From: Micromonospora peucetia
GTDB lineage: Bacteria; Actinomycetota; Actinomycetes; Mycobacteriales; Micromonosporaceae
Assembly (NCBI RefSeq): GCF_900091625.1
Contig: NZ_FMIC01000002.1
Span: 6,696,001-6,760,000 of the forward strand
Direction: 5' to 3'
Length of the DNA stretch: 64,000 nt
Within the stretch, counting starts at the first letter, position 1; the number at the start of each line of letters is the position of its first letter. The position numbers and the translations under genes were made by a program. Below, piece by piece: positions 4,608 to 50,700 of the stretch. The notes under the pieces are model-generated. The model made no database searches. It had not been told where the DNA came from and worked only from the letters and a program-made list of their open reading frames with translations.

Positions 4608-4697
4608 ATCAGCCCGAGGACGGATCCTACCCAACTCAGAATGCGAGCGGCTGGCTTCGTGTGGCTGGGGTGCCGTCAGGTGCGGCGGGGATGCCTC

Positions 4698-4890: not shown

Positions 4891-4906
4891 GTTGATTACC
4901 ACCTGG

Positions 4907-25783: not shown

Positions 25784-25841
25784 TGGGCCTGCCCCGTTTT
25801 GACGGACATCCAAGATCAGGGGACCTGGGGTCTCCGGGAGG

Positions 25842-27058: not shown

Positions 27059-27104
27059 CTAAGATCAACACATTGACCCTGTCCGTCGAAACGGGTCAAG
27101 CCCA

Positions 27105-28301: not shown

Positions 28302-28415
28302 TGTCAACGGCCAATCAGATCTCCCCGTAGGCGGCCAGTAGTTTTCCCCGCTGGCGGCCATGGTTTCTCCCCAGTGGCGGCCAGATAGTTCCCCGCCTGT
28401 GGGGTGGTGCTGGGG

Positions 28416-29207
28416 TCAGTGCAAGGCTTTGACGCCCTGTCCGGCGGTGGCTTGGTTGAACCGGTAGCTGTCACCCTGGGTCACGACGACGTGGGCGTGG
28501 TGCAGGAGTCGGTCGACGGTGGCGGTGGCCAGGGTCTTGGGCATGATCTCGTCGAAACCGGACGGGTGCAGGTTCGAGCTGACCGCGAGGCTGCGGCGTT
28601 CGTAGGCGGCGTCGACGAGGCGGTAGAACCCTTCGGCGGCGTCCGGGGAGACCGGTAGCAGGCCGATGTCGTCGATGATGATCAGGTCGGTGCGGATCAG
28701 TCTGGCCATGGCTCGGGCGACGGAGTCGTCGGGGCGGTGGCGGCGGACCATGACGCCGAGGTCTTCGATGGTGAACCAGGCGACGGTCATGCCGGCCTCG
28801 ACGGCGGCTTGGCCGAGGGCTTCGCAGAAGTGGCTCTTGCCGGTGCCGGACGGGCCGCAGATGGACAGGTTCTCCTTGCGCTGCACCCATTCCAGGCTGC
28901 GCAGGGCGTCCTGGGTCGGCCGCGGGATCGAGGAGGCCTGCTCGTCCCAGTCGCCGAAGGTTTTGCCGGCGGGGAACGCGGCGCGTTTGCGCCGGGTGCG
29001 CAGGTTGGCCTGGTCCCGGCCGGCTGCCTCCTCCGCGAGGAGGACCCGCACGACTTCGGCCGGGTCCCAGCGTTGCGCTTTCGCGGTGGGGATGAGGTCG
29101 GCCATGGCCCGGCGCAGGTGCGGCAGTTTCAGCCGGCGGGTGAGCTCGATCGCTTCGGTCAGCGGGTCACCGGCTGCGCCGGTGACCCGCAACGGGGTGA
29201 TGGTCAC
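28416..29207 (-). CDS. istB: IS21-family helper ATPase IstB
   Basis: 263 residues from a GTG at 29205-29207 that overlaps the istA stop (GTGA). AAA+ ATPase with Walker A CGPSGTGKSH near 110, Walker B LIIIDDIGLLP near 175, and sensor residues in AVSSNLHPSGFDEIM. DnaC-like; it assembles on target DNA and stimulates the IstA transposase. Frames extending upstream to 30044 are antisense shadows of istA. Intact. Confidence 0.93.
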   Translation of the reverse strand: MTITPLRVTGAAGDPLTEAIELTRRLKLPHLRRAMADLIPTAKAQRWDPAEVVRVLLAEEAAGRDQANLRTRRKRAAFPAGKTFGDWDEQASSIPRPTQDALRSLEWVQRKENLSICGPSGTGKSHFCEALGQAAVEAGMTVAWFTIEDLGVMVRRHRPDDSVARAMARLIRTDLIIIDDIGLLPVSPDAAEGFYRLVDAAYERRSLAVSSNLHPSGFDEIMPKTLATATVDRLLHHAHVVVTQGDSYRFNQATAGQGVKALH

Positions 29208-30739: not shown

Positions 30740-30837
30740 GATCAGCGGGGAGGTATCTGGCCGTCCACGGGGAGAACCCTGGCCATCAGCGGGGCGGTAA
30801 ATGGCCGCCTATGGGGATCTTTCACTGGCCGCCGACA

Positions 30838-33800: not shown

Positions 33801-36529
33801 TGGCCGATTGCCGAACTCTGCTCCCCGCGCACGCGGGGGTGATCCCGCGGCCACGGACACCGTGAGGACGCTCAGCGACTGCTCCCCGCGCACGCGGGGG
33901 TGATCCCAGGGCCACGCCGGCCGCGTCGCGGGCAATCGGCTGCTCCCCGCGCACGCGGGGGTGATCCGGTCACGGCGCGCGAAGTCACCGCCGACCAGCT
34001 CTGCTCCCCGCGCACGCGGGGGTGATCCCGCGGGACCAGCGACGCTCGCCAAGATGCGGACCTGCTCCCCGCGCACGCGGGGGTGATCCCTCCCCGCGGA
34101 CACGAGGCCACCGAAGAACCACCTGCTCCCCGCGCACGCGGGGGTGATCCCACCGCGCCGGCGATGCCCATGAAGTTCTCGGCCTGCTCCCCGCGCACGC
34201 GGGGGTGATCCGTACGAGGAGACGGGCAGCGTCAAGGCCGCGAACTGCTCCCCGCGCACGCGGGGGTGATCCCACGTTCACGGCCGTGAGGCCGGAGAAG
34301 TGACTCTGCTCCCCGCGCACGCGGGGGTGATCCCGGGCAGGTCAACGTCGTCAGGCCACACGGTCACTGCTCCCCGCGCACGCGGGGGTGATCCCCCCGA
34401 GGTCACGTCGACACACCGACCAACGGTCTGCTCCCCGCGCACGCGGGGGTGATCCGGTGGCGCACGACCCGGGCGCGGCCCGCCCGGCCTGCTCCCCGCG
34501 CACGCGGGGGTGATCCAGAGGCGGAGACGGTCTACATGTACGCCCAGGCCTGCTCCCCGCGCACGCGGGGGTGATCCGCCACAGACCGGCTGCCGCGAGC
34601 AGGGCCGCCCCTGCTCCCCGCGCACGCGGGGGTGATCCCTCGCGGCGATCCGGACTGGCGTCCGCAACCAACTGCTCCCCGCGCACGCGGGGGTGATCCC
34701 GGTCAACATGTGCCGCGACCGGCCCCATTGGACTGCTCCCCGCGCACGCGGGGGTGATCCCGGAGGAGCGCGCAAGGGCGGCGGAGCAGGAGCCTGCTCC
34801 CCGCGCACGCGGGGGTGATCCTGGGCGATCCGGCAGGCTGCGGAATGAGTTCCGCTGCTCCCCGCGCACGCGGGGGTGATCCCACGATGGCCGCCGAGGC
34901 CGGCAAGATCCAGATCTGCTCCCCGCGCACGCGGGGGTGATCCGTCGAGATCGCGGTGGTGCGGGGCACGGCCCTCCTGCTCCCCGCGCACGCGGGGGTG
35001 ATCCCACGCTGCGCACCCAGCGGCCGCCGGTCTTGGCCTGCTCCCCGCGCACGCGGGGGTGATCCGTTGTTCGGCCGGTGAGCGGCTGGACTAACGACCT
35101 GCTCCCCGCGCACGCGGGGGTGATCCTCGCGCAGAATGAAGATGAGATTCCGCACCGGGCTGCTCCCCGCGCACGCGGGGGTGATCCGGCCGGTGCCGAC
35201 GCCCGGGCCCGGCGGTACCCCTGCTCCCCGCGCACGCGGGGGTGATCCCTCGGCCTGGCCGGCCTTGTCGAGGCCGTTGACCTGCTCCCCGCGCACGCGG
35301 GGGTGATCCACGCGGCAGCCCACGCCTCGCGGTTGCGCAGTCGCTGCTCCCCGCGCACGCGGGGGTGATCCGCCGGCCACCGCCAGATACTGCGCTGCCT
35401 CGTCCTGCTCCCCGCGCACGCGGGGGTGATCCCCGGCCCGCCCAGTAGGCCCGGCCGACGTCAACCTGCTCCCCGCGCACGCGGGGGTGATCCCATGATG
35501 TCGCGAAACGCCTGAATAGCCGGGGACTGCTCCCCGCGCACGCGGGGGTGATCCCGCGATTGCCGGGCTGTGGAATCGGACCGTGGGCTGCTCCCCGCGC
35601 ACGCGGGGGTGATCCCGACAACGTCAACGCCCGTAAGCTGCGGAAACTCTGCTCCCCGCGCACGCGGGGGTGATCCGTCCAGGGCGAGACGCTTCGTTCG
35701 ATCCGCTCTCTGCTCCCCGCGCACGCGGGGGTGATCCGCAGACCGGCCGGCGCCACTTCGAGGCCCCCGACTGCTCCCCGCGCACGCGGGGGTGATCCGT
35801 CGTTAGGGAATCGCCCAGCCGCGCCGTAGTGCTGCTCCCCGCGCACGCGGGGGTGATCCGACCTCGGCGGCCCCGGCCGCCACGAAGAGCACCTGCTCCC
35901 CGCGCACGCGGGGGTGATCCTGTTGTTGTCGACGATGACCGGGGTGCCGTTGGCTGCTCCCCGCGCACGCGGGGGTGATCCCGTGCTGCCGCCAATGCCG
36001 GTCACATCCGTGTACTGCTCCCCGCGCACGCGGGGGTGATCCCGACTCGGTGATCGTGGGGCGGGCGGCGTCTGGCTGCTCCCCGCGCACGCGGGGGTGA
36101 TCCGTCGGCCAAGTAGCGGGTGCATCCGGGCTTGTGCTGCTCCCCGCGCACGCGGGGGTGATCCGGTCACCCACCGGCGCGGCGCCGCCAAGCTGGCCTG
36201 CTCCCCGCGCACGCGGGGGTGATCCGTCCAAGACCCCGCCCGAGGCGGCGCGCCACGACTGCTCCCCGCGCACGCGGGGGTGATCCCGCAACAGGGGCAG
36301 ACGCCCGTAGCGGATGCCTCTGCTCCCCGCGCACGCGGGGGTGATCCGTTCTCCCCCGGTCTGATCCCGGTCCCGACACACTGCTCCCCGCGCACGCGGG
36401 GGTGATCCCGAAGCCGTCTTCTCGCTGTTGGTCGCCCTTCACTGCTCCCCGCGCACGCGGGGGTGATCCCGGTCTACATCTACCGCGACCGGCCCCATTG
36501 GACTGCTCCCCGCGCACGCGGGGTGATCC
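30838..36529 (+). CRISPR. CRISPR array 1, distal segment (about 93 repeats)
   Basis: Begins with the 3' part of the split repeat, then full repeats from 30887 to 36503 at 61-62 bp. The last repeat (36503-36529) lacks one G of its 3' stem, the usual decay at the trailer end, so the leader is on the left. With the other segments the array has about 135 repeats. One spacer (31647-31679) is identical to one in array 2. Spacers at 34700-34732 and 36470-36502 differ at only 3 of 33 positions. Confidence 0.98.
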
Positions 36530-36755: not shown

Positions 36756-37166
36756 TCAACTACTTCTTTTTCCTTCGCTTTGCGTGGGGATCGTCGGCAC
36801 TCCGTCGCTGGCTTCTGGGACCCGGCGGCCAAACCTGCGGCGTTTGGAGGCTTTGCTCCACCCGGAGGACAGCGCAGGGTTGTACGACTTCCGTTCTGTC
36901 GGCCGGCGCATCAACGTGACCCCGTCAAAATCTACGGGTTCCCAGTGGTGGTCGTGCACCTTGAAGGAAAGCCGCTGCTCGCCCGGCTGTTGATAGACGA
37001 GCAGCGCCCGGCCCGGTCCGGCCATTTCGAGGACCTTGGCCCAGAGTCGGCTACGGATCCGACTGCTTATGTATCCCACGTATACCCCGGCGGAGATCTC
37101 CAGTAGCCACTGCGTCAGGTGCCCTCGAAGCCCTTCGGGGCACGCAGTGAGGATGATGACGGTCAT
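36756..37166 (-). CDS. cas2: CRISPR-associated endoribonuclease-fold protein Cas2 (type I-E)
   Basis: Structural partner of Cas1 in the spacer-integration complex. 136 residues starting MTVIILTACPEGLRGHLTQW, followed by LLEISAGVYVGYISSRIRSRLW, the I-E (Cas2e) ferredoxin-like signature. The usual protein is 95-110 residues. Here a basic, Ser-rich extension of about 35-40 residues follows RRPTERK. The ATG at 37164-37166 overlaps the cas1 stop. It is last in the cas operon; its stop is 36 nt from the casB relic. Confidence 0.95.
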   Translation of the reverse strand: MTVIILTACPEGLRGHLTQWLLEISAGVYVGYISSRIRSRLWAKVLEMAGPGRALLVYQQPGEQRLSFKVHDHHWEPVDFDGVTLMRRPTERKSYNPALSSGWSKASKRRRFGRRVPEASDGVPTIPTQSEGKRSS

Positions 37167-38134
37167 CAGAAGTCCACGTCTCCGCTGTAGTTCCGGCCAC
37201 CGGCCAGCTCGAAACCGCCTTCGTCCCAGAGGCGTACGGTGTCGTTGCCGGCTTGCTCGTCGACCTCTTCCTCGTCGATCGGCCCGGCAGATCCGTCGGT
37301 AAGCAGCAGACTTCGGATGTCACGGGCGCAGCGGCCGAGGAGTGCGCCGTCGTGCACCCGGTCGCGCACGGCCCGGCGTGTGTCAGCGCCGATGTCAGTC
37401 GACTCGCTGGCCGCGATCTCGAAGGCAACCGGGATGGTGATCTCGGCCTTGTAGAGGTCGGCGATGTCGTAGACGAATGATCGTTCGTGGCCGGTGTGGA
37501 CAAAGCCGAGTCCGGGTGAGGCCCCGAGGGCGACGATGACCGCGTGCACTATCCCGTAGAGGCAGGCATGAGCCGCTGACAGCGCCTGATTGACCGGGTC
37601 GCTGCCGGAAAAGTCGTCCGGGTCGTACTCACGGTTGTTCCAGGCCACACCGGTCCGCAGGGCGTGCTCGCGGTAGGAGCGGCGTACCCTCGCACCCTCC
37701 TTGCCACGCAACTGCTGCATGGTGAGGTTGGTGGTGTCCTCGCCGGGGAACCGCATCCGGTACATCGCTCGCGCGACCTGGAGCCGTCGGTCGCGGTGCG
37801 ACACGGCGGCGGCCTGGGCTACGAGGAGTCGGCTCGACCGGGCGAGGGTACGACCGTGCGCGTAGTAGCGGACGCCGTGCTCGCCGACCCAGACGACGGT
37901 GGCGCCGTTGTCGGCGATCAGCATCATCGCCTGCTGCGTGATGCTGGTGCCCGGCCCGAGCATCAGGGCACCGAGGGTAGCCGCCGGAATGTGCACGATT
38001 CCCTTCTCGTCGGTGGCCGTGATCGCGTTGCTGTCTCGATGGATGACGCAGCGTTCGAGGTAGACGAAGCTGATCCGATCCTGCGCACGGCTGAGATCCG
38101 GCAACTCGGCCGGCGGCACGCCGGGGATCTTCAC
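37166..38134 (-). CDS. cas1: CRISPR-associated endonuclease Cas1 (type I-E)
   Basis: Integrase that inserts new spacers at the leader-repeat junction. 322 residues from a GTG at 38132-38134 that overlaps the cas6 stop (GTGA). The N-terminal beta domain starts IPGVPPAELPDLSRAQDRIS. The helical catalytic domain has the metal ligands Glu in LRGKEGARVRRSY, His in GFVHTGHERSFVYD and Asp in YDIADLYK. The C-terminal tail is acidic (DEEEVDEQAGND). The long upstream in-frame reading to 38506 is cas6 antisense shadow. Intact, so adaptation is probably functional. Confidence 0.96.
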   Translation of the reverse strand: MKIPGVPPAELPDLSRAQDRISFVYLERCVIHRDSNAITATDEKGIVHIPAATLGALMLGPGTSITQQAMMLIADNGATVVWVGEHGVRYYAHGRTLARSSRLLVAQAAAVSHRDRRLQVARAMYRMRFPGEDTTNLTMQQLRGKEGARVRRSYREHALRTGVAWNNREYDPDDFSGSDPVNQALSAAHACLYGIVHAVIVALGASPGLGFVHTGHERSFVYDIADLYKAEITIPVAFEIAASESTDIGADTRRAVRDRVHDGALLGRCARDIRSLLLTDGSAGPIDEEEVDEQAGNDTVRLWDEGGFELAGGRNYSGDVDF

Positions 38135-38814
38135 GGGGCGACCTCGGCGGGGGCGAGGGTCAGCAACCCACAGCCGTATGCGCGGGCGTGCCCGATGCCC
38201 CGGGTGAGTACGCCCCGGAACAGGGTCGGGTCGTTGACTTCGAGAACGCCGTCGTAGGTGGCCGTGACCAGGGTGACCGGGCGTTGACCGTGGTTGCGGG
38301 TGAAGCGGTGGACCTGGCGGTTGTAGGTGACGAGGTTGAGTTCCCCGTCGGCCTGCCGGACGACGGTGAACCCGTTGCGTTCCGTGCGCCTGGTCAACCA
38401 TTCGACCTGTTGAACGGGGGTGACATGACCGTACCGCTGGGTCGTCGGGGTGTCCTGGTTCCGGCGTCCGGTCCGGGTGGGATTCGCGGTGAGCCGGAAG
38501 GCCCATCGCTGGCCCTTGTCGAGGGATTCGAGCAGTCGAGCGTACGGTCGGGTTTCCCAGGTTTCGGCGCTGCTCGGCCAGCCGGCCTGCTCGACCATGT
38601 GGGTCAGGTCGGGTGCGGTCGGGCTGACGACGTAGAGCATGACCTTCCGGTCCCGTCCCTGGTCAAGGCGCCACAGGGTACGGGCGTCGTCGCGGGTGTG
38701 GTCCTCGAGGCGGGGGAAGCCGGACAGGACAGCGGCGTGCATTGCCTGCGGTGAGGCGAGCAGTTTGCGCGCGTCCCGTCGGGCCGGATTCACGAGGAAT
38801 CGGGTGAGGTACAT
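38131..38814 (-). CDS. cas6e: CRISPR repeat endoribonuclease Cas6e (CasE/Cse3)
   Basis: Cuts the pre-crRNA at the base of the repeat hairpin and stays bound in Cascade. 227 residues from the ATG at 38812-38814, with GGG 6 nt upstream; an ATG two codons earlier (38820) is also possible. It starts MYLTRFLVNPARRDARKLLASPQAMHAAV, with the conserved His in the HAAV region. The Gly-rich loop GVLTRGIGHARAYGCGLLTLAP at the end is typical of RAMP proteins. It is followed by cas1 with a 4-nt overlap. Confidence 0.95.
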   Translation of the reverse strand: MYLTRFLVNPARRDARKLLASPQAMHAAVLSGFPRLEDHTRDDARTLWRLDQGRDRKVMLYVVSPTAPDLTHMVEQAGWPSSAETWETRPYARLLESLDKGQRWAFRLTANPTRTGRRNQDTPTTQRYGHVTPVQQVEWLTRRTERNGFTVVRQADGELNLVTYNRQVHRFTRNHGQRPVTLVTATYDGVLEVNDPTLFRGVLTRGIGHARAYGCGLLTLAPAEVAP

Positions 38815-38823
38815 CGTCATCCC

Positions 38824-39546
38824 TTACAGCGCCGCAAGCGGATCGTGGTAGGCCGGCGCATGGGCGCCGGGGGCTGCGGTGGCAACCGGAGGACGACCGT
38901 CGGGGTTCGGCACGACGACCCGGGTCCGGATGACCGCCCGCCACGCGTACTGCCGGTGGGCAGGGTCGAAGCTGATCGGCTGGTCCGGCAGAGTTTCGGT
39001 GACTTCCGCCCCGGGTGGCGCGTCGCTGAGCACCTCTAGCGGAACGGTCATTTCACCGCGCTCACGGAGGCGTTTCGATGCCTGCCACGGCCAGTCGCCG
39101 AGCACCTCGGCGACTGTGCCGGAGTGGACGCCGAGGGAGATCGGTGCCACCGGAGGGCAGGAGCGGCGGCCGAGATAGAGCGGGAAGTGCGGCCGGCGTA
39201 CCGCTTCGTGCAGCCCGTCGAGCAGCGTCTGGTCACCGCCGATCGCGGCGAGGAACACCGCGTCGGAGAGGTAGTAACGGTGGGTCAGCGGCATGCTGTC
39301 GCGGCCGTCGAGGGTGCGCGCGACCTGGAAGTCGCGCAGTATCTGGCCGGGCTGGTCGATCCGAACCCCGAAGTCGAGGCGGAGCAGTTCGGTAAGGGGG
39401 TCGGTACGCCGCAGTCCCCGGGCTGCGGCCAGCATCCCGATGACTCCGCTCTTGGTGGGGGCGACCTCGGTGTGCCGCTGGGTGAAGCGGCTGGTCGCGC
39501 CCCAGGACTGGAGCGGACCGGCCAGCCGCAGCAGCAGGACGTTCAT
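38824..39546 (-). CDS. cas5e: Cascade subunit Cas5e (CasD)
   Basis: RAMP protein that caps the crRNA 5' handle in Cascade. 240 residues: MNVLLLRLAGPLQSWGATSRFTQRHTEVAPTKSGVIGMLAAARGL is the family N-terminus, with GPLQSWG and the PTKSGVIGMLAAA segment. The Gly-rich RAMP elements are present (LYLGRRSCPP). It overlaps the cas7 stop by 4 nt (ATGA) and ends 9 nt before the cas6e start, so it is co-translated with its complex partners. Confidence 0.95.
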   Translation of the reverse strand: MNVLLLRLAGPLQSWGATSRFTQRHTEVAPTKSGVIGMLAAARGLRRTDPLTELLRLDFGVRIDQPGQILRDFQVARTLDGRDSMPLTHRYYLSDAVFLAAIGGDQTLLDGLHEAVRRPHFPLYLGRRSCPPVAPISLGVHSGTVAEVLGDWPWQASKRLRERGEMTVPLEVLSDAPPGAEVTETLPDQPISFDPAHRQYAWRAVIRTRVVVPNPDGRPPVATAAPGAHAPAYHDPLAAL

Positions 39547-40709
39547 GCCGGCGTACCGAGACGGTCGGCGACCGCCGCCCCGACAGCGTCGACCAGTCCG
39601 GGCAGCGGCAGCACCTCGCCGAGGGGTGCCAGGGTTGCGGTACGGCTGCCGACGTGGGTGACCCAGGCGGCGACAGCAGGGTCGCCATACGCCTGCTCGA
39701 CCTCGGTCGTGTGCGCGGCGAGCTTCTCGGCGGCGGCGGTGACCACGCCGGACCGGTCGCCGAACTGCCTCTCCCGGACAGGCTCCTCGAAGGCCCCGAC
39801 CAGGTTGATCGACTGGGTGTCGCGCAGCCGCACCATGACCGCGTCGGGGCGAGTGCCGTTGGCGAAGGTGTTCCGCTTGCCGGACGGCATGCTGGTGGTA
39901 AAGGCGAGCAGGAACGCCTCCACGGCCTGTCGGGTGGCGGCGAGGTCGCCGAGGGTGTCGTGCAGCCGGTCGACGTCGACGGTGGCGTACCGGTAGAGGG
40001 TGGAGGAGTTGAACTCGATCGTGCCGATCATGCCGGCACCGGTTTCCTGGTTGTCGTGCTTACGGTCGTCGACTGCGGTGTAGTAGTCGAATTCGTTGTC
40101 GACGGCGTGCACGCTGAGGGCGTGGGCGACCTGGACGGCCGCATCGACGTTCAGGTCGGGCACCTCGGCGACCATCCGGCCGAACATGGCGATGTCGATG
40201 GAATGGTCGGTGTCGGCCAGCTTCTGGAGCTGCTTGGCGTCGAGCTTCGCACCGGTCCGCTCGGCCTCGATCGCGGCCCGCGCCAGGTTCTCCTGCTGGC
40301 GGTGGCTGAGGAAGAGGAGATAGCCGGACTCGACATCGGTGCCTTGCCCCGGCTCCTTGCCCTTCTTCGCCGCCGCCTCCTTCTTGGCTGCTGCTTCCTT
40401 CTTCACCAGGCCGGCGGCCTTGAGGACCTCTGCCGCCAGGACGGAGGCCTTGTCCTTCAGCTCGGGGTCGAGGTCGGCGATCCGGGCGGCGACGGCTTCC
40501 CCGACACGCTTGGTGCGCTCGCCGAGCTGGGCGTCGTCGAGAGAGTCGGCGAACGCCAGCCGCACCGCCCGCTTCCACGCCTGGGACGAGACCCGGGCCC
40601 GGCGGACCCCGCCATAGGTGGCGGTCTTGGGGGAGCCGGAGTCGTCCCTGTTGACGTTGCTCGGCGGCAGGGTGTGCAGGATGTGGACGTCCAGGATGGT
40701 CCGGGTCAT
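39543..40709 (-). CDS. cas7e: Cascade backbone subunit Cas7e (CasC/Cse4)
   Basis: Six copies form the crRNA-binding backbone, whose thumbs flip every sixth base. 388 residues from the ATG at 40707-40709 with GAGGAG upstream. It starts MTRTILDVHILHTLPPSNVNRDDSGSPKTATYGGVRRARVSSQAWKRAVR. The longer frame to 41438 is a casB shadow. Compared with the E. coli length (about 363) there is an insertion near residues 102-122 that contains VKKEAAAKKEAAAKKGKEPG, an EAAAK-type rigid helix. Spacing to casB is 2 nt. Confidence 0.95.
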   Translation of the reverse strand: MTRTILDVHILHTLPPSNVNRDDSGSPKTATYGGVRRARVSSQAWKRAVRLAFADSLDDAQLGERTKRVGEAVAARIADLDPELKDKASVLAAEVLKAAGLVKKEAAAKKEAAAKKGKEPGQGTDVESGYLLFLSHRQQENLARAAIEAERTGAKLDAKQLQKLADTDHSIDIAMFGRMVAEVPDLNVDAAVQVAHALSVHAVDNEFDYYTAVDDRKHDNQETGAGMIGTIEFNSSTLYRYATVDVDRLHDTLGDLAATRQAVEAFLLAFTTSMPSGKRNTFANGTRPDAVMVRLRDTQSINLVGAFEEPVRERQFGDRSGVVTAAAEKLAAHTTEVEQAYGDPAVAAWVTHVGSRTATLAPLGEVLPLPGLVDAVGAAVADRLGTPA

Positions 40710-40711
40710 GG

Positions 40712-41392
40712 TCACTCCTCGGTGGCGGTCTGGTTGGGTGCCGGGTCGGTGGCGTTGGCCTCGTGGCGGTCCTTGGGATCGGGCTGGCGGTAGAAGTCGC
40801 GGCCCCACCGGCCGCGAACTTGGGCCGGCCCCCACGGCTTCTGCAGAGCAACCAGATCCTCGGCGAGCACCCCGTAGTCGAGGGGTATCCGCTTGTCCCG
40901 CAGGAGCCGGACCAGGCTGCGCAGGTGGGTGGTGGCGGAGGGGTACGTGGTAGCGGTGCCGAGGGCGGCGAAGCGACGGTGTACGGCCTCGGCGCTGGCG
41001 GACTGCCGGGCCAGCAGGCTGACCGCCGCACCCAGGCCGATGCCGTCCTGATGCATGGGAAGATCGCGGATCGACTGCTGGTGCACCGCGTACAGGGTGA
41101 GCACGGTGTGCATGGCCTGTTCGGTGTGGGTCACGGTGTCGTCGCTGAGCCACCCCTGGTCGAGGTGGTCCTCCGTCACCCGGGTCTGTTCCAGGATCGT
41201 GAAGTCGGCGGCAGGTTCCCGGCCGACCGCGCGACGCAGCCGGGCCAGGACGGCCACGGCGGAGCTGGATTCCCTCAGGTAGCCGTCCTGCAATCCCGCG
41301 ACCTTCGCGGCGACGTACCCGCCGAAGGGGCCTCGGCGACGGGCATGGCGGACGGTGGGGCTGTCGTTGTCGGCGGGGACTGTAACGGTCAC
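40712..41392 (-). CDS. casB: Cascade small subunit Cse2 (CasB, Cas11e)
   Basis: Helical protein present in two copies in Cascade; it stabilises the R-loop. 226 residues from a GTG at 41390-41392 overlapping the casA stop (GTGA). The conserved basic helices are seen in SSSAVAVLARLRRAVGREP and HLRSLVRLLRDKRIPLDYGVLAEDL. The C-terminus, GRWGRDFYRQ, marks the family and is also seen in the relic at 36541-36720. An extra acidic tail of about 25 residues is present. The frame up to 42004 is shadow. Confidence 0.93.
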   Translation of the reverse strand: MTVTVPADNDSPTVRHARRRGPFGGYVAAKVAGLQDGYLRESSSAVAVLARLRRAVGREPAADFTILEQTRVTEDHLDQGWLSDDTVTHTEQAMHTVLTLYAVHQQSIRDLPMHQDGIGLGAAVSLLARQSASAEAVHRRFAALGTATTYPSATTHLRSLVRLLRDKRIPLDYGVLAEDLVALQKPWGPAQVRGRWGRDFYRQPDPKDRHEANATDPAPNQTATEE

Positions 41393-43068
41393 GCCGGCAC
41401 CTCCTGGGAAGCGGACGGGGTGGCGAGGGTGGTGGCAAGCGGCAGCGCCCGGCGCATGGCGTCGCGAAAGAACCTGTCGGCCAGTGGGCTGCTGAGGTGC
41501 TTTTTCTTTTCCGAATCCACGTAGCGGCCGGCCCAAGCCTGCGGTCCGGACCACTCGACCAGGTTGCTGCCGAGGCTCCAGACGCATCGCCTCACCTGCG
41601 TCTGCCACTGGATGCGGGCCTGCGTCGGGTCGTCGGCCGGGCCGAGGCCGGCCAGCCACTGCCGGAACAGGACGTCCAGTTCGGCGTAGGCGAGTTCGGC
41701 GGCCCGGTCCGCGGCAATGGCCGGGGGGTCTTCGGACCTGTCCCCGTACCCGCCACCGGCCCGGCAGAGGTTGGCGGCGAGCCCGCGCAGGACCTTGACG
41801 GCGGCCTCGGCGTCGGCCGCGCCGTCGACGATGGTGGTGGTGAGCGGACCGGCCGGGTCGAATGCCTGCACGGTCATGGTCAGCCCGTCGTGGTAGATCT
41901 CGTCCACCACCGACATGTTGTTGCCGTAGACGACGCCGACCGCGCGGGTGGTGACCCGGTATCGATCGTCGATCAGCCCTTTGATCCGCAGCCGGGCCAG
42001 CCACTGGCTGACCGCCGGTGGGCGCCGGGCCGGAGCGTCGGCACCCGGTTTCTCGGCACGCGCCGGCAACAGCCGGTCCAGCCCGCGCCAGAGGGCCCGG
42101 GTGTGGTCATGCAGGCCGGGCAGGTAGACGACGGGGAGCCCGAGCTTTTTCTCCTGGTTGGGGCTACGCCGCCAGCCGCTCATCGGTTCCTGGCGGTGCA
42201 GATTCGTCCAGGCGATCCGGTCACCGTTGGCGATCATGGCGCCGGTGATGCCGGTCTGGTCGCCGAAGAGCCGGATCCGCCGGGACTGCCAGGTGTAGAG
42301 GTTGAGCACGCCGTGTGGACCCCGCTCCCGCTCGCCCTCCTCGGCCGGGCCATGCGGGTCGCGTTCCCAGACCGGGGAGTCACGCTCGGGATCCTGCTGG
42401 AGATAGGCGCTGTCGAGGGGGACGAGGTTGAGCAGCAGGGTCTCGCGAAGCGTCCGGCCTTCGAGGTAGATCAGGCCCAGGGAGCCACCGGACGCGGGGC
42501 CGATGGGGTAGCCCTTGCCGCCGCTGACCCGGTCGTCGCCGACCGCCCCGGACTTGATGCCGGAGGTGTCGTACGCCTGGCAGTGCACCAGCCACACGGC
42601 GGCCTCCGCCAGGGTCAGCCGTTCCAGGCCGGGTCCCAGCCGGGTGGTCAGGTATGGCGCGTTGTTCGGCACGTCGGCGATGAACCGTTGCAGGCCGAAC
42701 ACGTCGTTCTGCTTCTGCGTGCGCAGGCCGGCGACCTGATAGAACGGCGTGACCGGGTGTAGCAGGTCGAAGCGGTCCCGGTATTCGTCGAGGTAGCTGG
42801 CGATGTCGCCGGCCGGCAGGCCGGGCTGCCGCCACAGATCCTGCCAGGCGCGTTCGTCCTCGGGGCCGCCGACTGCGCGGTGCAGGACGGCGAGCAGGAG
42901 TCTTAAGATCGCGGACGTCTGCGTCGGCAGGTCACCGGCGACGGCTCGCAGCTCCGCCGCCTGGGCGAACAACTCGGGGAGGGAAGTCAGGCGACGGCGG
43001 CCGGCCAGGTCGAGCACCGGGATCCAGGGTTGCCCGATCAGGGAAAAGGAGGGCGTAGGTTCCGACAT
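41389..43068 (-). CDS. casA: Cascade large subunit Cas8e (CasA/Cse1)
   Basis: Recognises the PAM and recruits Cas3. 559 residues. The start MSEPTPSFSLIGQPWIPVLDLAG is chosen because GGAG then has a 7-nt spacing; an ATG at 43074 is too close to it. Typical segments: LTSLPELFAQAAELRAVAGDLPTQTSAILRLLLAVLHRA, FYQVAGLR (L1 area) and AVWLVHCQAYDTSGIKSG. The 249-bp gap to the cas3 stop is the only large gap in the operon. It holds the degenerate repeats and their putative target, so casA probably has its own regulated promoter. Confidence 0.95.
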   Translation of the reverse strand: MSEPTPSFSLIGQPWIPVLDLAGRRRLTSLPELFAQAAELRAVAGDLPTQTSAILRLLLAVLHRAVGGPEDERAWQDLWRQPGLPAGDIASYLDEYRDRFDLLHPVTPFYQVAGLRTQKQNDVFGLQRFIADVPNNAPYLTTRLGPGLERLTLAEAAVWLVHCQAYDTSGIKSGAVGDDRVSGGKGYPIGPASGGSLGLIYLEGRTLRETLLLNLVPLDSAYLQQDPERDSPVWERDPHGPAEEGERERGPHGVLNLYTWQSRRIRLFGDQTGITGAMIANGDRIAWTNLHRQEPMSGWRRSPNQEKKLGLPVVYLPGLHDHTRALWRGLDRLLPARAEKPGADAPARRPPAVSQWLARLRIKGLIDDRYRVTTRAVGVVYGNNMSVVDEIYHDGLTMTVQAFDPAGPLTTTIVDGAADAEAAVKVLRGLAANLCRAGGGYGDRSEDPPAIAADRAAELAYAELDVLFRQWLAGLGPADDPTQARIQWQTQVRRCVWSLGSNLVEWSGPQAWAGRYVDSEKKKHLSSPLADRFFRDAMRRALPLATTLATPSASQEVPA

Positions 43069-43110
43069 GAGCATTCTCCGTCGCGTTGACCAGCAGAGAC
43101 GGGATAGACG

Positions 43111-43128
43111 AAGTTTTCACTACGAATA
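43111..43128 (+). promoter_or_regulatory. Putative Cascade target (PAM plus protospacer) upstream of casA
   Basis: AAG at 43111-43113 is followed by TTTTCACTACGAATA at 43114-43128, 43-60 nt upstream of the casA start. The guide between the degenerate repeats reads TTTTCGCTACGGATA after its first G. Identity is 13 of 15, with the two mismatches at guide positions 6 and 12. The PAM is the canonical I-E trinucleotide. On the minus strand a TATCCC about 10-15 nt nearer casA could be a -10 element, which would put this site at or beside the -35 region. Confidence 0.7.
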
Positions 43129-43148
43129 GCTCGACCGAGGGACTCTAA

Positions 43149-43226
43149 CCGTTCCCGCCTTACAGCGGGGTGATCCGTTTTCGCTACGGATATTCGCCGT
43201 GCTCCCTGCGTATGCAGGGTTTCGGC
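43149..43226 (+). ncRNA. Putative CreR-type guide RNA: two degenerate CRISPR repeats around a 22-nt spacer
   Basis: Degenerate repeat 1 (43149-43176) keeps the hairpin CCCGC-cttaca-GCGGG and the exact 3' handle GTGATCC of the array repeats; about 18 of its 3' 26 bases match. Degenerate repeat 2 (43199-43226) keeps a perfect stem, CCCTGC-GTAT-GCAGGG, but has lost the handle. Between them is GTTTTCGCTACGGATATTCG plus CC (43177-43198), 22 nt instead of 33. Cas6e could cut both hairpins to give a crRNA-like RNA with a short guide. Orientation is that of the arrays (plus strand), antisense to the cas operon. The 5'-most 15 nt of the guide match the casA upstream site at 43114-43128. Confidence 0.75.
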
Positions 43227-43317: not shown

Positions 43318-46251
43318 TCACCGGCCGACCTTCTCGACCCGTAGACCGCTGTCCTGGTCGTAGGTCAGGCCGAAGTCGGTGAGCCGACTTCGGCCCTGTT
43401 CGTCGAGGTCAAGGATCAATTCCCCGCCGAGAAGCCGGTCCTTCTCCCAGGCCGGGAACGTGTTCCGCTGCTCCAGTTCGGCGATGACCCGATCGATGCC
43501 CCCGTTGACGGTTACCGCTCGCGGCAGTGGCAGGGCACAGCGCAGCATGGTGCGAGCCACCGTTCGAGGTGCCTCGAAGTCGATCGGCACCTCGACGTCA
43601 CCGCCCCGGTCGAGCCACGGCGGGGTCACCAGCTTTTCGCCTCGGCGTATCAGGATCAGCACCTCCAGCGCCTCGGCCCCGTCGTCACGGACGTGGGCCC
43701 GCCCACGCCGCTCGTTGCCGTTCGCGGCCTCGCTGTCGCCCACGCTGGAGTCGAGCCAGCTCACCAGGCTCGCCCCCGGCGCCCGGACCGGCCCGACCCG
43801 GAAGGTGTCCGCCCGTTTGCGCGCCGCCTCGGCGCGGTCGTCGGCCTGGATCGCCGCCTCGGCCAGTGCTGCCTGCCACGACGGCGGACCCACCGGCCCG
43901 GTGCCGTACGCGGTCTGCACCAGGGGGGCGATGTCCTGCGGCAGGCCCAGTGCCCGGCCGCCGTCGAGATGCGGCAGCAGGACGGCGGCGGCCCGGAGCA
44001 GGGCGTGGTGCTGATACACCCTGGCCGACCCGGGGACCGGGGTGGGCGGGACCGTCGTCCAGTCGGCGCCGGTCACCAAACAGCGGGGCTGTGCCAACCC
44101 GGCGGGGCGGCCGGAACGCCGGTGCCGGTGCAGGCGTCCGAGTCGTTGCAAGATCAGGTCCACCGGTGCCAGGTCGGTCACCAGCAGGTCGAAGTCGATG
44201 TCCAGGGACTGCTCGGCGACCTGGCTGGCGACGACGACGTGGCAGGTGGGCCGGGTCCGTCCCAGCTTCGCGAGATGCTCGGGCGGACCGAAGGTGTCCC
44301 GTAGCCAGGTGTCCTTGGCGGCCCGATCAGCGGCCATGAAGCGGGAATGCGCCACGCTGACCGGGATTCCCGGACCAAGTTGCCTCCGCAACTCGTCGGC
44401 GGTTTCCAGCACGCGGGCGACGGTGTTGCGGATGACCAGGACACATCCGCCGTCGGCGAGGTCGGTCCGGAGTCGGTCGGCGAGGACGGCCAGGTCGTCG
44501 TCCGTGCGTTCCAGCCGTACGTCGAAGCTCCGGCCGGACGCCTCGCACCCGGCCACGGCCGGCACCCGGTCCACGCCCGAGACGCTGAGCAGCGGATACC
44601 GTTGCTCGTCGCGGAGCACCTGATACTCGTCGGCGATTTCGCCGCCCCCCACACCGGACCGATGCCGGCGGCGTACACCTCGGCGGGGGCCGAGCCGGCC
44701 GATGTCGTACGCCCGCATCATGTCCGCCCGCCGACGAGCCGGGAGGGTCGCGGAGAGAATGACCACCGGTACGCCGTGCGCGCCCAGCCACTCCAGGGCC
44801 CGGTCGAGATACTGGCTCATGTAGACGTCGTAGGCGTGGGCCTCATCGATGACAACCACCTTGCCGGCCAGACCAAGATGCCGCAATGCCACGTGACGGG
44901 CCTGCAACGCGGCGAAGAGCAACTGGTCGACGGTGCCGACCACGAAGCTCGACAGCATCTTCCGCTTACGCCCGGCCAGCCAGCCGTGCGCGGCGGTGGC
45001 CGTGCCACCCTCGTCCACCCCGATGGCGCTGGGCAGCACACCGCGATAGAGGCGAGAGTGTTCGTCGTTGAGAATCGCCTTGCCGTGAGCCACCGCCGCA
45101 TCCCGGGCACCCCGGCCGCGGTCAGCGTCCGGCAGCCGGCTCAACCAGCCAAGCACCCGGCTGAACATCGCGTCACTCGTCGCCCTGGTGGGCAGCGCCA
45201 CAAAGCACCCGCCCGCCCCGGTACGTGCGGCGATGATCTCCACGGCCGCGAGGGCAGCCTCGGTCTTCCCCTCGCCCATCGGCGCCTCGACGATCAGCAG
45301 CCCCGGCAGCGGCATGATGCGGGCCTGCTCCACCACCGCCGCCTGCACCGGGTACGGCTGGGACCCGGCCGGCATCTCGAACCGCCGGGAGAAGAAGGTT
45401 GCCACGTCAAGGTTGACGGTGTCGACGGCCTGCCACGGGGTGGGCAGATCCAACTCCTCCCACGCCTGCTCAAGCCGATCGGGAGCATCCTCCTGCCGGA
45501 AGCCGTACGGGAAGAACTGCTCATTGCTGGCGATCCAGTCGGCGACGATGACGATCGCGGTTAGCAGCACCTGTACCGGCTGCGGCAGAATCACCTCCCG
45601 CCACGCGGCCAGCCGGTCAGCGGCGGCAACGCGACGGGTCATCCAACCGAGTAGTTCGTCCTGCACGCCGGGCCAGATCCCGCCCACACCGAGCAGGTAC
45701 GGCCGATCGCGGATCTGCAACAGATCGGCGTCGGTCGGCGGGACCCCGTGGTGACCGCCGACCACCACCGTGTACGTCTCGGCATGCGCCCGGTCCCAGC
45801 CGTGCCGGGCGGTCAGCCAGTCGGTGAGAACGACCTGCCCGGCCGCCCCGTGCGGTGCAAGCAGACGGCTCGCCTCGACCTGACGGTCGAAGGTGAAACC
45901 GTGGTCCCGCATCGTCTTCCGTAAAGGCTCGACCTGCCAGGTAAAAGCGGGTGTGGCCTTTCCGATGTCGTGAATGCCGGCGAGCCAACGCACCAGGATG
46001 CGCCCGTCGTCAAAGCCGCCGGGAAGCGGCCCGGCGATGTGCTGCCGCACCGTGGCCGGCAGCCAGACGTCCCACAAGAGCCCGGCCACATCGGAGCTGT
46101 CAGCGAAGTGCCGGAACAGCGGCAGCCAGACCAACCCTCGGTCGCGGTTCGTTTTACCCCAGACGAGACGCGCAGTCTCGCTAAGGCCACCCCAATCGGT
46201 CACGCCAGACAGAAAACCAGAGGGGTGTGACAATACGAACCACCTCAGCAT
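43318..46251 (-). CDS. cas3: CRISPR-associated helicase-nuclease Cas3 (HD plus DExH)
   Basis: Degrades target DNA after Cascade binding. 977 residues. The N-terminal HD nuclease has His in WLPLFRHFADSSDVA, the HD pair in LAGIHDIGKATPAF near 92-95, and later VVGGHHGVPP. The SF2 helicase has Walker A EAPMGEGKTEAALAA near 325, DEAH in VVIDEAHAYDVYMSQYLDRAL, SATLPARRRADMM and QLGRLHRH-type motif VI (LQRLGRLHRHRRSG). Neither the ATG at 46249-46251 nor the GTG at 46201-46203 (VTDWGGLSETARLVWGK, closer to family starts) has a clear ribosome binding site. It is divergent from array 2. Confidence 0.95.
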   Translation of the reverse strand: MLRWFVLSHPSGFLSGVTDWGGLSETARLVWGKTNRDRGLVWLPLFRHFADSSDVAGLLWDVWLPATVRQHIAGPLPGGFDDGRILVRWLAGIHDIGKATPAFTWQVEPLRKTMRDHGFTFDRQVEASRLLAPHGAAGQVVLTDWLTARHGWDRAHAETYTVVVGGHHGVPPTDADLLQIRDRPYLLGVGGIWPGVQDELLGWMTRRVAAADRLAAWREVILPQPVQVLLTAIVIVADWIASNEQFFPYGFRQEDAPDRLEQAWEELDLPTPWQAVDTVNLDVATFFSRRFEMPAGSQPYPVQAAVVEQARIMPLPGLLIVEAPMGEGKTEAALAAVEIIAARTGAGGCFVALPTRATSDAMFSRVLGWLSRLPDADRGRGARDAAVAHGKAILNDEHSRLYRGVLPSAIGVDEGGTATAAHGWLAGRKRKMLSSFVVGTVDQLLFAALQARHVALRHLGLAGKVVVIDEAHAYDVYMSQYLDRALEWLGAHGVPVVILSATLPARRRADMMRAYDIGRLGPRRGVRRRHRSGVGGGEIADEYQVLRDEQRYPLLSVSGVDRVPAVAGCEASGRSFDVRLERTDDDLAVLADRLRTDLADGGCVLVIRNTVARVLETADELRRQLGPGIPVSVAHSRFMAADRAAKDTWLRDTFGPPEHLAKLGRTRPTCHVVVASQVAEQSLDIDFDLLVTDLAPVDLILQRLGRLHRHRRSGRPAGLAQPRCLVTGADWTTVPPTPVPGSARVYQHHALLRAAAVLLPHLDGGRALGLPQDIAPLVQTAYGTGPVGPPSWQAALAEAAIQADDRAEAARKRADTFRVGPVRAPGASLVSWLDSSVGDSEAANGNERRGRAHVRDDGAEALEVLILIRRGEKLVTPPWLDRGGDVEVPIDFEAPRTVARTMLRCALPLPRAVTVNGGIDRVIAELEQRNTFPAWEKDRLLGGELILDLDEQGRSRLTDFGLTYDQDSGLRVEKVGR

Positions 46252-46496: not shown

Positions 46497-47394
46497 CTGC
46501 TCCCCGCGCACGCGGGGGTGATCCAAGGGATAAGAAAAAGGCCCCCGAAAGCTCGGGCTGCTCCCCGCGCACGCGGGGGTGATCCCGAGGCGCAGGATGG
46601 CGTCATCACCTTTTCGTTCTGCTCCCCGCGCACGCGGGGGTGATCCCTTGACCTCGTGCTGGTCGTCGCTGCCCCACTTCTGCTCCCCGCGCACGCGGGG
46701 GTGATCCGGTGGAGCAGGTGATCGACCGCTATGACGCTGCCTGCTCCCCGCGCACGCGGGGGTGATCCGGCGCAGCGGGAGAACTGGAAGGCACGCAAGC
46801 GCTGCTCCCCGCGCACGCGGGGGTGATCCGGTGGGCCGCTCGAAGGCGAAACCAACGACCAGCTGCTCCCCGCGCACGCGGGGGTGATCCATGAGGTGGG
46901 CGACCTGCGCGCGGTTGAAGGTCCTGCTCCCCGCGCACGCGGGGGTGATCCCTCGAAGCCGGGCGACACCCTGTCGGAGCACGTCTGCTCCCCGCGCACG
47001 CGGGGGTGATCCCCGCTCGCGGGCGGATCGGCCATGGCCGGCCTGCTGCTCCCCGCGCACGCGGGGGTGATCCCCGCCGCCTGCATTTCCGCCTCGGTGC
47101 TGGCGTCTGCTCCCCGCGCACGCGGGGGTGATCCGGCACAGTCATCATCGACCGCACCAGCCGGTACCTGCTCCCCGCGCACGCGGGGGTGATCCACGTC
47201 CGTAGTCGGCGATGCTGGTCGAATCCTCCTGCTCCCCGCGCACGCGGGGGTGATCCCCCGGGTGAGGGCCTGTCGATGTACACCCCGGTCTGCTCCCCGC
47301 GCACGCGGGGGTGATCCGGCGTGGGGACACGACATCACGGGCGTGTGGAACTGCTCCCCGCGCACGCGGGGGTGATCCCTGTAGTGGGTACCTA
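46497..47394 (+). CRISPR. CRISPR array 2, leader-proximal segment (15 repeats)
   Basis: Fifteen perfect or near-perfect 28-bp repeats from 46497 to 47351, spaced exactly 61 bp, with the same repeat as array 1. The final spacer is interrupted after 16 nt by the IS5-type element. The array lies just upstream of cas3 and is transcribed away from it. Its freshest spacers are next to an intact leader, so this is the likely active acquisition site. Confidence 0.98.
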
Positions 47395-48272
47395 AGGGAC
47401 GTCTCGTAACTGGGTGAAGGCGTTGCCTGGGACGGGGTCGGCGGTCAGCCGGCGAGGATGATGTTGTGGAGGTTGGCGATGCCGGAAGCGGCGTCGGCCA
47501 ATGTGTGGGCGGCGCGGCGGTAGTCGCGCAGGATCTTGAAGCACTTCATCCTGGCCAGGGCGTGTTCGACCCCCGCTCGGACGGTGCGGTGTTCGACGTT
47601 GAGGGCTTCCTTCCAGGTCGGCAGCGAGCTGCCGTCGGCGGGCTTGCGGTACGGCATGATCACCTCGGGGTTACCTCGGTAGCCGCCGTCGGCCATCACC
47701 GGCCGCCCGTTCAGCTTCTGGTCGATGTCTGAGGTGCGGTAGACGATCGTGTCGTTGCGGTTGCCCGGCTGCGGATCGCCAACGGCGATGACCAGGCGGG
47801 TGCTGGCGTCGATGGCGACCTGCAGGTTCGTCGAGTAGCGGTAGTTCTTGCTGCGGGCGGCCAGGCGGTGATCGCGGGTGGGGATCAGGGTGCCGTCGAC
47901 GATGGCGATCTGTTCGACCGGCCGTTTACGCACTGGTGCCAGGGCCAGTAGCGGCGCGAGGGTGTCGATGACCCGGTGCGCCGCGGAGTGCGACACCCCG
48001 AACAGCGGGCCGATCTGCCGCATCGTCAGGTTCGTACGCCAGTAGGCGGCCACCAGCAACACCCGATCCGGGAGGTCGAGGGCCCACTGCCGGCCCGGCC
48101 GGCCGTCGGCGATGCCGTCACCGCCGCGCTCGGCGACCAGCCGGACCAGCCTGCGGAACTGGGCGGGCTGCAACCCGGTGAACGGAAAGACCCACTCCGG
48201 ACGGGCTGCCGAGATCACCTGCACCCCACCATGATCCACGATGGACGCGAGACCCAGTTACGAGACGTCCCT
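47395..48272 (-). mobile_element. IS5-family insertion inside a CRISPR spacer
   Basis: 878-bp element with near-perfect terminal inverted repeats beginning AGGGACGTCTCGTAACTGGG on both ends. It is flanked by a TA duplication (47393-47394 and 48273-48274). Removing it with one TA restores a spacer of exactly 33 nt (16 + 17). Size, TA target and the single DDE transposase fit the IS427-type branch of IS5. Confidence 0.9.
47445..48239 (-). CDS. IS5-family transposase (DDE_Tnp_4 type)
   Basis: 264 residues. An N-terminal helix-turn-helix is near 30-95 (FTGLQPAQFRRLVRLVAERGG and LTMRQIGPLFGVSHSAAHRVIDTL). The catalytic core has Asp in AIVDGTLIPT, Asp in VMADGGYRGN and Glu in RAGVEHALARMKCFKILRDYRR. 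The frame is complete. It starts at ATG 48239 inside the right terminal region. Confidence 0.93.
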   Translation of the reverse strand: MDHGGVQVISAARPEWVFPFTGLQPAQFRRLVRLVAERGGDGIADGRPGRQWALDLPDRVLLVAAYWRTNLTMRQIGPLFGVSHSAAHRVIDTLAPLLALAPVRKRPVEQIAIVDGTLIPTRDHRLAARSKNYRYSTNLQVAIDASTRLVIAVGDPQPGNRNDTIVYRTSDIDQKLNGRPVMADGGYRGNPEVIMPYRKPADGSSLPTWKEALNVEHRTVRAGVEHALARMKCFKILRDYRRAAHTLADAASGIANLHNIILAG

Positions 48273-50700
48273 TAGGCAGGCTGACAAGCCCCTGCTCCCC
48301 GCGCACGCGGGGGTGATCCCCGGCTGGCGCAGATCGAGCGCCGCCGGCAGGACTGCTCCCCGCGCACGCGGGGGTGATCCCTCGCGGGACGCCCTGGCGG
48401 AGGTGCGGTCGCTCTGCTCCCCGCGCACGCGGGGGTGATCCCCGGAGTGGTCGTGTCGGCCCCCTCGCCGACCGCTGCTCCCCGCGCACGCGGGGGTGAT
48501 CCCGGGGGGCCCGCCGTGGTCTACCGCGCCAACCCCTGCTCCCCGCGCACGCGGGGGTGATCCTGTCAATGACGGTCGATTCGGGCTGAAACCCTCCTGC
48601 TCCCCGCGCACGCGGGGGTGATCCCTCGCGGGGCTGGTGGGTCAGGTGCTGTCCACCCTGCTCCCCGCGCACGCGGGGGTGATCCGTCGGGGTGTGTGGC
48701 GACGTGAACGGGTGCGGTCTGCTCCCCGCGCACGCGGGGGTGATCCGGTCAGGCCGAGCTTGACGGCGATCTCGGAGACCTGCTCCCCGCGCACGCGGGG
48801 GTGATCCGTACCCGCAGCCCGTCGACGAGCTGCTGCCGAACTGCTCCCCGCGCACGCGGGGGTGATCCGTGGGCACGTGCCCTCAACCACCGCATCGTTC
48901 TCTGCTCCCCGCGCACGCGGGGGTGATCCCAGCGACAAGACCCGCCGACCCACCGGCCGCACCTGCTCCCCGCGCACGCGGGGGTGATCCCTGGTGGAGG
49001 ACCACGGCAATCTGCTGGCCTACCTGCTCCCCGCGCACGCGGGGGTGATCCGGCCGTCCGGGCGGCCGTCGAGGACGGCATTTTCTGCTCCCCGCGCACG
49101 CGGGGGTGATCCCGCCGTGAGTGTGCCGATCCCCCTGGCGGTGGCCTGCTCCCCGCGCACGCGGGGGTGATCCCGAGATCACGGCCTGCCGCTCCGCCCG
49201 CAGGCCCTGCTCCCCGCGCACGCGGGGGTGATCCGCCGTCCCGCTTGTGCCAGATACGGCCGTTGTACTGCTCCCCGCGCACGCGGGGGTGATCCCGTCA
49301 TCAACCCGCTTGTGCGGCTGGGTGGTGACTGCTCCCCGCGCACGCGGGGGTGATCCCGCGTCGAAGGCCCCGTTCAGGGTCGGCCCGGCCTGCTCCCCGC
49401 GCACGCGGGGGTGATCCCATGCCGCCACTGGGGGCGTCGGGCGCGCTCGCCTGCTCCCCGCGCACGCGGGGGTGATCCGGCCGTCCGGGCGGCCGTCGAG
49501 GACGGCATTTTCTGCTCCCCGCGCACGCGGGGGTGATCCCGCCGTGAGTGTGCCGATCCCCCTGGCGGTGGCCTGCTCCCCGCGCACGCGGGGGTGATCC
49601 CCGGACGCCCCGCACGCCGTGAAGACGCCGGTGCTGCTCCCCGCGCACGCGGGGGTGATCCCTCGTCGGCGCGCTCCTTGGCCCGCGTGATGCCCTGCTC
49701 CCCGCGCACGCGGGGGTGATCCCGAGATCACGGCCTGCCGCTCCGCCCGCAGGCCCTGCTCCCCGCGCACGCGGGGGTGATCCGCCGTCCCGCTTGTGCC
49801 AGATACGGCCGTTGTACTGCTCCCCGCGCACGCGGGGGTGATCCCGTCATCAACCCGCTTGTGCGGCTGGGTGGTGACTGCTCCCCGCGCACGCGGGGGT
49901 GATCCCGCGTCGAAGGCCCCGTTCAGGGTCGGCTCGGCCTGCTCCCCGCGCACGCGGGGGTGATCCCATGCCGCCACTGGGGGCGTCGGGCGCGCTCGCC
50001 TGCTCCCCGCGCACGCGGGGGTGATCCCGGCACCACCCACCCCACCGGACGGTCGTGGGAACTGCTCCCCGCGCGCGGGGGGGTGATCCGACGCCATCCG
50101 TCCGGCCGCATGGGAGCAACAACTGCTCCCCGCGCACGCGGGGGTGATCCCACCCTCTGCGTCAACCCGTGGCACCTGGAGCCCTGCTCCCCGCGCACGC
50201 GGGGGTGATCCGCAGGGACACGCGCGGATGGCTGAGCGGTTCGTCTGCTCCCCGCGCACGCGGGGGGTGATCCGTCGGCTATCCGCTGGTCGCGGGGACT
50301 TCGGGCCTGCTCCCCGCGCACGCGGGGGTGATCCCACCGAGGCGGGTCGCAAGAACATGGCCATGCTCTGCTCCCCGCGCACGAGGGGGTGATCCCTGTT
50401 CAGGCCCGGCCCGGTGTATGCCCGCTACCTGCTCCCCGCGCACGCGGGGGTGATCCCTCCCGCCGACGCCCCGCCGTGTCGTGGTCCTGCTGCTCCCCGC
50501 GCACGCGGGGGTGATCCCTCGCGTTGGATGTTGCGCCACAGATCGAAGTCCTGCTCCCCGCGCACGCGGGGGTGATCCCGCCCACGGGTTGGCCTGCGGA
50601 TGCCGTTCCCCCTGCTCCCCGCGCACGCGGGGGTGATCCGGCCTGCAAGGAATCCAGCAGCCCGGCCGGTGACTGCTCCCCGCGCACTCGGGGGTGATCC
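48273..50700 (+). CRISPR. CRISPR array 2, distal segment (40 repeats)
   Basis: Repeats from 48292 to 50673 at 61 bp. The last ten or so include several variants: 50062 (GCGCGCGGGGGGG), 50246 (an extra G), 50371 (ACGAGG) and 50673 (ACTCGG). This is trailer-end decay that confirms the leader at the left. Seven spacers occur twice (49052-49450 and 49479-50000), and the second block has two additional spacers. The spacer at 48991-49023 is identical to that at 31647-31679 in array 1. Confidence 0.98.

Follow-up and report, generated by a model that had tools for sequence, protein, structure and literature searches.

The 64,000-nt stretch of DNA that we analyzed (hereafter referred to as the window) is part of contig 2 of a two-contig genome of 7.37 Mb and contains a type I-E cas operon on the minus strand (Table 1). 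The plus strand of the window carries 184 perfect copies of a 28-nt array repeat (CTGCTCCCCGCGCACGCGGGGGTGATCC), mostly at a period of 61 nt, and very large arrays were located at 24473–36457 and 46512–50627. The base following the repeat at the 185 array repeat ends in the window was C in 109 cases, G in 56, T in 12, and A in 8.

Table 1. Coordinates of the cas genes, the mini-CRISPR, and its predicted target in the window.
Feature	Position	Strand	Remarks
cas2e	36756..37166	-	TIGR01873
cas1e	37166..38110 (start approximate)	-	TIGR03638
casE/cas6e	38131..38820	-	TIGR01907; predicted processing nuclease
casD/cas5e	38824..39546	-	TIGR01868
casC/cas7	39543..40700 (start approximate)	-	TIGR01869, 277.7 bits
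casA/cse1	41389..43074	-	TIGR02547, 212.7 bits; first gene behind the target; gene of the Cascade operon presumed to be regulated
Intergenic stretch with target	43075..43148	.	putative location of divergent casA (-) and creR (+) promoters
PAM AAG	43111..43113	+	directly precedes the target
Predicted Cascade target (protospacer) TTTTCACTACGAATA	43114..43128	+	40 nt upstream of the casA start codon
Degenerate repeat R1 CCGTTCCCGCCTTACAGCGGGGTGATCC	43149..43176	+	19/28 identical to array repeat; stem TCCCGC/GCGGGG; 5' handle GTGATCC
Spacer GTTTTCGCTACGGATATTCGCC, 22 nt	43177..43198	+	base 29 = G (unpaired with target); guide begins at 43178 (TTTTCGCTACGGATA...)
Degenerate repeat R2 GTGCTCCCTGCGTATGCAGGGTTTCGGC	43199..43226	+	18/28 identical to array repeat; stem CCCTGC/GCAGGG kept; 3' handle lost
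cas3	43318..46251	-	TIGR01587, TIGR01596; upstream of the mini-CRISPR gap

The 243-nt gap between cas3 and casA contains a mini-CRISPR of 78 bases on the plus strand (43149–43226). The first-pass annotation of this DNA had described two decayed repeats with paired stems, an exact R1 handle, and a 22-nt spacer, and all of these features were confirmed; the stems of R1 and R2 consist of six pairs each, including one T-G pair in R1. The R1 handle is exactly GTGATCC, and R2 has lost its handle and kept its stem. The parts that are kept (the stem and handle of R1 and the stem of R2) are those that would be expected if a single RNA, cut after each stem, were sufficient. With repeat identities of 19/28 and 18/28 and a 22-nt spacer as opposed to a period of 61 nt, the unit does not qualify as a canonical array, and a mini-CRISPR with degenerate repeats adjoining a cas operon is the arrangement expected of a CreR locus. 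The predicted RNA fold of the mini-CRISPR contained both hairpins (z -2.9; 2 of 200 shuffles folded equally well), and the predicted stems and handle are compatible with processing by Cas6e and loading into Cascade. Within the same predicted fold, at 43171–43192, the handle bases AUCCG pair with the guide bases CGGAU; GGATC-like guide bases were also present in the related loci L092 and L113.

Following base 29, the guide (TTTTCGCTACGGATA) pairs with 43114–43128 at 13 of 15 positions, and the only mismatches are at positions 6 and 12. The letters bear out the earlier claim of an AAG-flanked match at this site mismatched at these two positions alone. The target is separated from R1 by 20 nt and from the casA start by 40 nt; the guide of the window therefore partially matches a PAM-flanked sequence located upstream of a cas gene, as expected of a CreR. 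The stretch from casA to the end of R1 contains eight AA-flanked sites, and only 2 of 300,000 shuffled guides matched one of these at each of the 13 read positions; none of 2000 shuffles of the window guide reached 10/10 seed positions within 400 nt. A search of the whole 7.37-Mb genome with the gapped motif AANTTTTCNCTACGNATA, allowing up to two mismatches, retrieved only the target and the guide itself. The mismatches at positions 6 and 12 are uninformative in the window pair alone, because three of four random bases mismatch, and become telling through the pairs of relatives. A promoter scan around the gap recognized no sigma-70-type promoter for casA or creR. Inspection by eye of L006, L008, and L092 showed a possible -35 element directly next to the PAM and, some 17–18 nt further on, a -10 element TAGACG.

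We searched for CasA in 201 relatives, of which 29 yielded a match, and in 354 genomes of the family, of which 70 did so at an E-value of 1e-20. The casA-upstream regions examined numbered 85, of which 77 belong to the family of the window and 8 to other families within the order; outside this set stand L017 and L031 (both fragments), the casA place G658, and the second piece of G100:C1. Units with their own guide and their own AAN-flanked target were found in 14 of the 85 regions, all in the family of the window, by a search that imposed neither the handle nor an exact spacer length. Judged from the position of the R2 stem, the spacer was 22 nt in eight of these intact gap units (the window, L004, L006, L007, L008, L086, L092, and L113), 21 nt in five (L089, L094, L096, L109, and L132), and approximately 32 nt in L130, the unit of which adjoins a divergent casA. 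The R1 stem was kept, with varied sequence, in all 14.

The other regions differed in state. At L129, 10/10 seed positions matched, with mismatches at positions 6, 12, and 13, and neither repeat was recognized, which leaves this locus doubtful. Two sister loci were decayed: in L085 the R1 stem is gone, the handle reads GTTATCC, and GAC stands in place of AAC, and L003 has no perfect R1 stem and a site that is one base short at position 6 or 7. Cascade might or might not tolerate such a single-base loss at a flipped-out position, and comparison of L003 with L085 by eye showed position 10 still altered alike in guide and site. A 10/10 match inside cas3 at L110 was dropped, as it lacked repeats. 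No recognizable unit was present in the remaining 68 of the 85 casA regions, and none with a target was recognized upstream of a second, divergent casA-like gene (37% identity) on the 96-kb contig of the window's own genome (G000:C1:74994-76574). The regulator is patchy in distribution, and the 68 regions without a unit, together with the two lesioned loci and the doubtful one, indicate that the unit is dispensable. By rough estimates from open frames, the cas3–casA gap measured 171–331 nt in the 13 unit loci recognized first (L003 included) and less than 100 nt in 43 of the 72 others, which include the later-found L085, L089, L129, and L132; the unit therefore tends to occupy an opened cas3–casA junction.

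For 36 of the 68 loci that lacked a gap unit, the search was extended to the region upstream of cas3. It yielded a single clear unit, at L183 from another family, with mismatches at positions 6, 12, 15, and 17 of 17 and a target between cas3 and the unit. The same scan gave 0/36 on reversed sequence, recovered the 14 intact gap units, and missed L129, L003, and L085. Five further 9/10 matches upstream of cas3 were dropped as array repeats or coding sequence by eye.

Scanning a genome-contig collection for the degenerate unit, with a 26-nt spacing imposed, yielded 25 loci, seven of which (L033, L036, L041, L045, L046, L047, and L051) were arrays or N-filled sequence and were not carried into the target search. 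An AA-flanked target was found in 16 of the remaining 18, including six already found via casA; in L038 and L042, which resemble array ends, the best target lacked an AA flank. The ten loci from other lineages belong to Microbacterium, Propionibacteriaceae, Nonomuraea, Chlorobiota, Propionibacterium, Aeromicrobium, Bifidobacterium (two loci), Acetobacter, and a Clostridiales MAG, and cas3 or casA was encoded within the same 8 kb in all of them except Nonomuraea. A scan of the same collection for CasA proteins retrieved no relative. In 397 genomes of the order, a pattern search gave 26 matches, two of which were recognized as units of the casA search (the window and G031). A strict pattern applied to 48 casA genomes returned five known units and a place in G508 resembling an array repeat; this pattern misses several known units, so that absence there means little. 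At L039, from the Propionibacteriaceae MAG (4415–5243), the target is situated approximately 46 nt before a 260-aa ORF that is DUF3800-like by eye and overlaps cas3, and this accessory ORF may share the control of the unit.

The unit of Nonomuraea montanisoli (L153, 6440–6810; the same unit is found in L040 at approximately 440–810) has an AAC-flanked site with a mismatch only at position 12 among positions 1–13. The site lies between an array and an ORF that appears integrase-like by eye, approximately 15 kb from cas3, and is followed after approximately 40 nt by a hydrophobic ORF of 66 aa. By its sequence, this unit is a candidate I-E module of the CreTA/CrePA type. A module of this type, in which the guide RNA acts as an antitoxin repressing a toxin gene behind the target, would share with the window its anatomy of degenerate repeats and a short match, and the 66-aa ORF of the Nonomuraea relative could be such a gene; for the window itself, however, this explanation is extremely unlikely, as the 40 nt between target and casA start and the 20 nt between target and R1 leave no room for a toxin gene.

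To compare guide–target pairing by position, targets were chosen on positions 1–5 and 7–11 with an AA flank, and positions 6, 12, and 13 were left free. The 25 pairs consisted of the 14 gap units, the ten pattern loci of other lineages, and L183, with L129 left out. The numbers of mismatches at positions 1–17 were 0, 1, 1, 0, 0, 17, 0, 1, 2, 2, 2, 20, 3, 8, 11, 12, and 13. Positions 6, 12, and 13, all left free, thus mismatched in 17, 20, and 3 of the 25 pairs, respectively (position 12 versus 13, Fisher p = 2e-6). Positions 6 and 12 combined mismatched in 37 of 50 cases, which is about the three-quarters expected of unread positions, as compared with 22 of 75 for positions 13–15 (Fisher p = 1.3e-6). 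The profile was similar in the 14 gap units alone (10, 12, and 3 mismatches at positions 6, 12, and 13; positions 6 and 12 versus 13–15, Fisher p = 0.003), with one pair per obvious cluster (12, 15, and 1 in 18 pairs), and in an alternative count that included L129 and omitted L183 (17, 20, and 4). When the PAM was not demanded, AA still preceded 17 of 20 best hits.

Guides were specific to their own sites. Among 22 pairs, a guide and its own target matched at a mean of 9.64 of 10 seed positions, as compared with 2.98 for swapped combinations, only 3 of 462 of which reached 9. In per-locus shuffles (2000 each), 21 of the 22 retained pairs were reached by at most 0.2% of shuffles; the weakest member, L052 (8/10 seed positions), was reached by 2.4%. 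The decayed loci L003 and L085 had no AA-flanked match, and 85% and 34% of their shuffles, respectively, did equally well. Base 29 equaled the third PAM base in just 7 of 22 pairs, which places it outside the guide.

The first-pass annotation had proposed comparing related I-E loci for covariation of guide and target at all positions except 6 and 12. In our comparison, the guides differed and each fitted its own AAN-flanked site, and independent divergence of the two was not seen; as expected of a CreR, the match was kept in relatives while both partners changed, with the lesioned L003 and L085 as exceptions. Two clusters of related loci allowed nine overlapping, non-independent comparisons, in which guide and target had changed together at 21 of the 24 seed positions that differed; the other three were all position 9 of L086. 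None of the differences at position 6 or 12 was compensated.

These data bear on two other explanations of the unit. It might be a non-functional array remnant with a self-derived spacer, consistent with its decayed repeats, with the lesions in stem, handle, PAM, or target at L003 and L085, and with the 68 of 85 casA regions without a recognizable unit. We consider this very unlikely, since a remnant should lose match and stem alike, yet the seed positions co-change and all 14 intact gap units retain their stems; moreover, the decayed part of R2 in the window is the portion that is unneeded in the mature RNA. The guide might also be part of a plain antisense RNA that pairs with the casA 5' leader independently of Cascade, given that it lies on the strand opposite casA and could reach the leader if transcription started upstream of the site. 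Antisense pairing would not be expected to show mismatches at six-base intervals from the handle or an AA beside the DNA site, and in L032, L044, L048, L052, L054, and L055 the target is on the coding-sense strand of the following cas gene, such that the guide cannot pair with the mRNA; this explanation therefore appears highly improbable.

The sequence data instead make it likely that 43149–43226 encodes a CreR-type RNA, which would load into the type I-E Cascade of the cell and repress the casA operon via 43114–43128. The mini-CRISPR would be transcribed from the plus strand and cut by Cas6e after each stem, giving an RNA with the 5' handle GUGAUCCG that would load into a shortened Cascade. 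With a short match, this Cascade would bind without attack by Cas3 and block RNA polymerase at casA, so that casA would be held down in proportion to free Cascade; competition by array crRNAs for Cascade, or loss of Cascade, would lift the brake and raise casA expression. The complex bound 20 nt before R1 might brake creR too, and cas3, on the far side, would be outside this control unless it shared another promoter. One could suppose that the bound complex chiefly controls the promoter of creR and not casA, as the window target ends 20 nt before R1, where the creR promoter would lie. The probability of this arrangement appears very low, because the target of L007 (M. andamanensis) lies away from R1, with its start approximately 118 nt ahead of the guide, and those of several other lineages lie beyond R2, toward cas3 or casA.

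Published work on Cascade offers points for and against repression of casA by the predicted RNA. According to PMC5904413, an AAG PAM and as few as five seed pairs are enough for binding by E. coli Cascade, every sixth base is flipped out, and interference requires long pairing. The same paper counts against repression in that off-target binding of Cascade in E. coli left local expression unchanged, and in that promoter repression is cited as greatly reduced once six PAM-distal bases mismatch; a shorter guide may lessen the latter loss. It also gives position 6 as matched in 45% of E. coli off-target sites, which is above chance and suggests that this position may be read in the first contact. 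In type I-B, adjustment of crRNA length is reported to switch the system between cleavage and repression (PMC10551041). From the biochemistry of Cascade, the position needs of CreA (see below), and this length switch, we infer that CreR holds casA down and that depletion of Cascade would derepress it.

Across 25 pairs from several lineages, pairing was kept at the positions that Cascade reads and lost at those that it flips out, which looks like selection acting through Cascade. If this is true, no experiments would be needed to find CreR regulators, and a direct test of whether actinobacteria meter Cascade with their own guide RNA could draw on the natural variants in which the unit is intact, decayed, or absent. 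We put forward, as a tentative and rather doubtful extension, that a single Cascade site between divergent promoters shuts off casA and the guide gene and spares cas3, forming a self-limiting Cascade meter, and that free drift only at every sixth base allows Cascade-read sites to be recognized by sequence in different phyla, with some I-E guides silencing small hydrophobic proteins, as in Nonomuraea, rather than cas genes.

This kind of regulator, type I-E included, is already described, and the unit of the window is a probable further case. The review PMC13131331 credits CreR autorepression in types I-B, I-E, and V-A to Liu et al. (2023; Cell Host Microbe 31:1481); PMC12737573 describes CreR in type I and V-A and its competition with crRNAs, and PMC12948488 cites Liu et al. 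(2023) without naming types. The first-pass annotation placed CreR-like RNAs in other CRISPR types; type I-E, too, belongs among those described (PMC13131331). We found no dedicated paper in an open-licence library on CreR units in Micromonospora or Actinobacteria or on type I-E mini-CRISPRs.

The unit shares the handle GTGATCC and the repeat fold with the type I-E crRNAs of the adjoining arrays, and C and G predominate at base 29 of these arrays (109 and 56 of 185), as they do at the third PAM base of targets. The arrays differ in their 61-nt period (28 + 33) and near-identical repeats, whereas the unit has a single 22-nt spacer and decayed repeats. According to PMC8501985 on CreTA of H. hubeiense, CreA needs positions 1–5 and 7–11 and not 6 or 12, and it resembles the window unit in its divergent, degenerated repeats and its unread positions 6 and 12; its PAM is inside the promoter region, where that of the window would putatively lie too. 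CreA represses a toxin, whereas the window has no fitting toxin gene. With CreR, as portrayed in PMC13131331 and PMC12737573, the unit would share a crRNA-like RNA from a mini-CRISPR with partial complementarity to a putative cas promoter.
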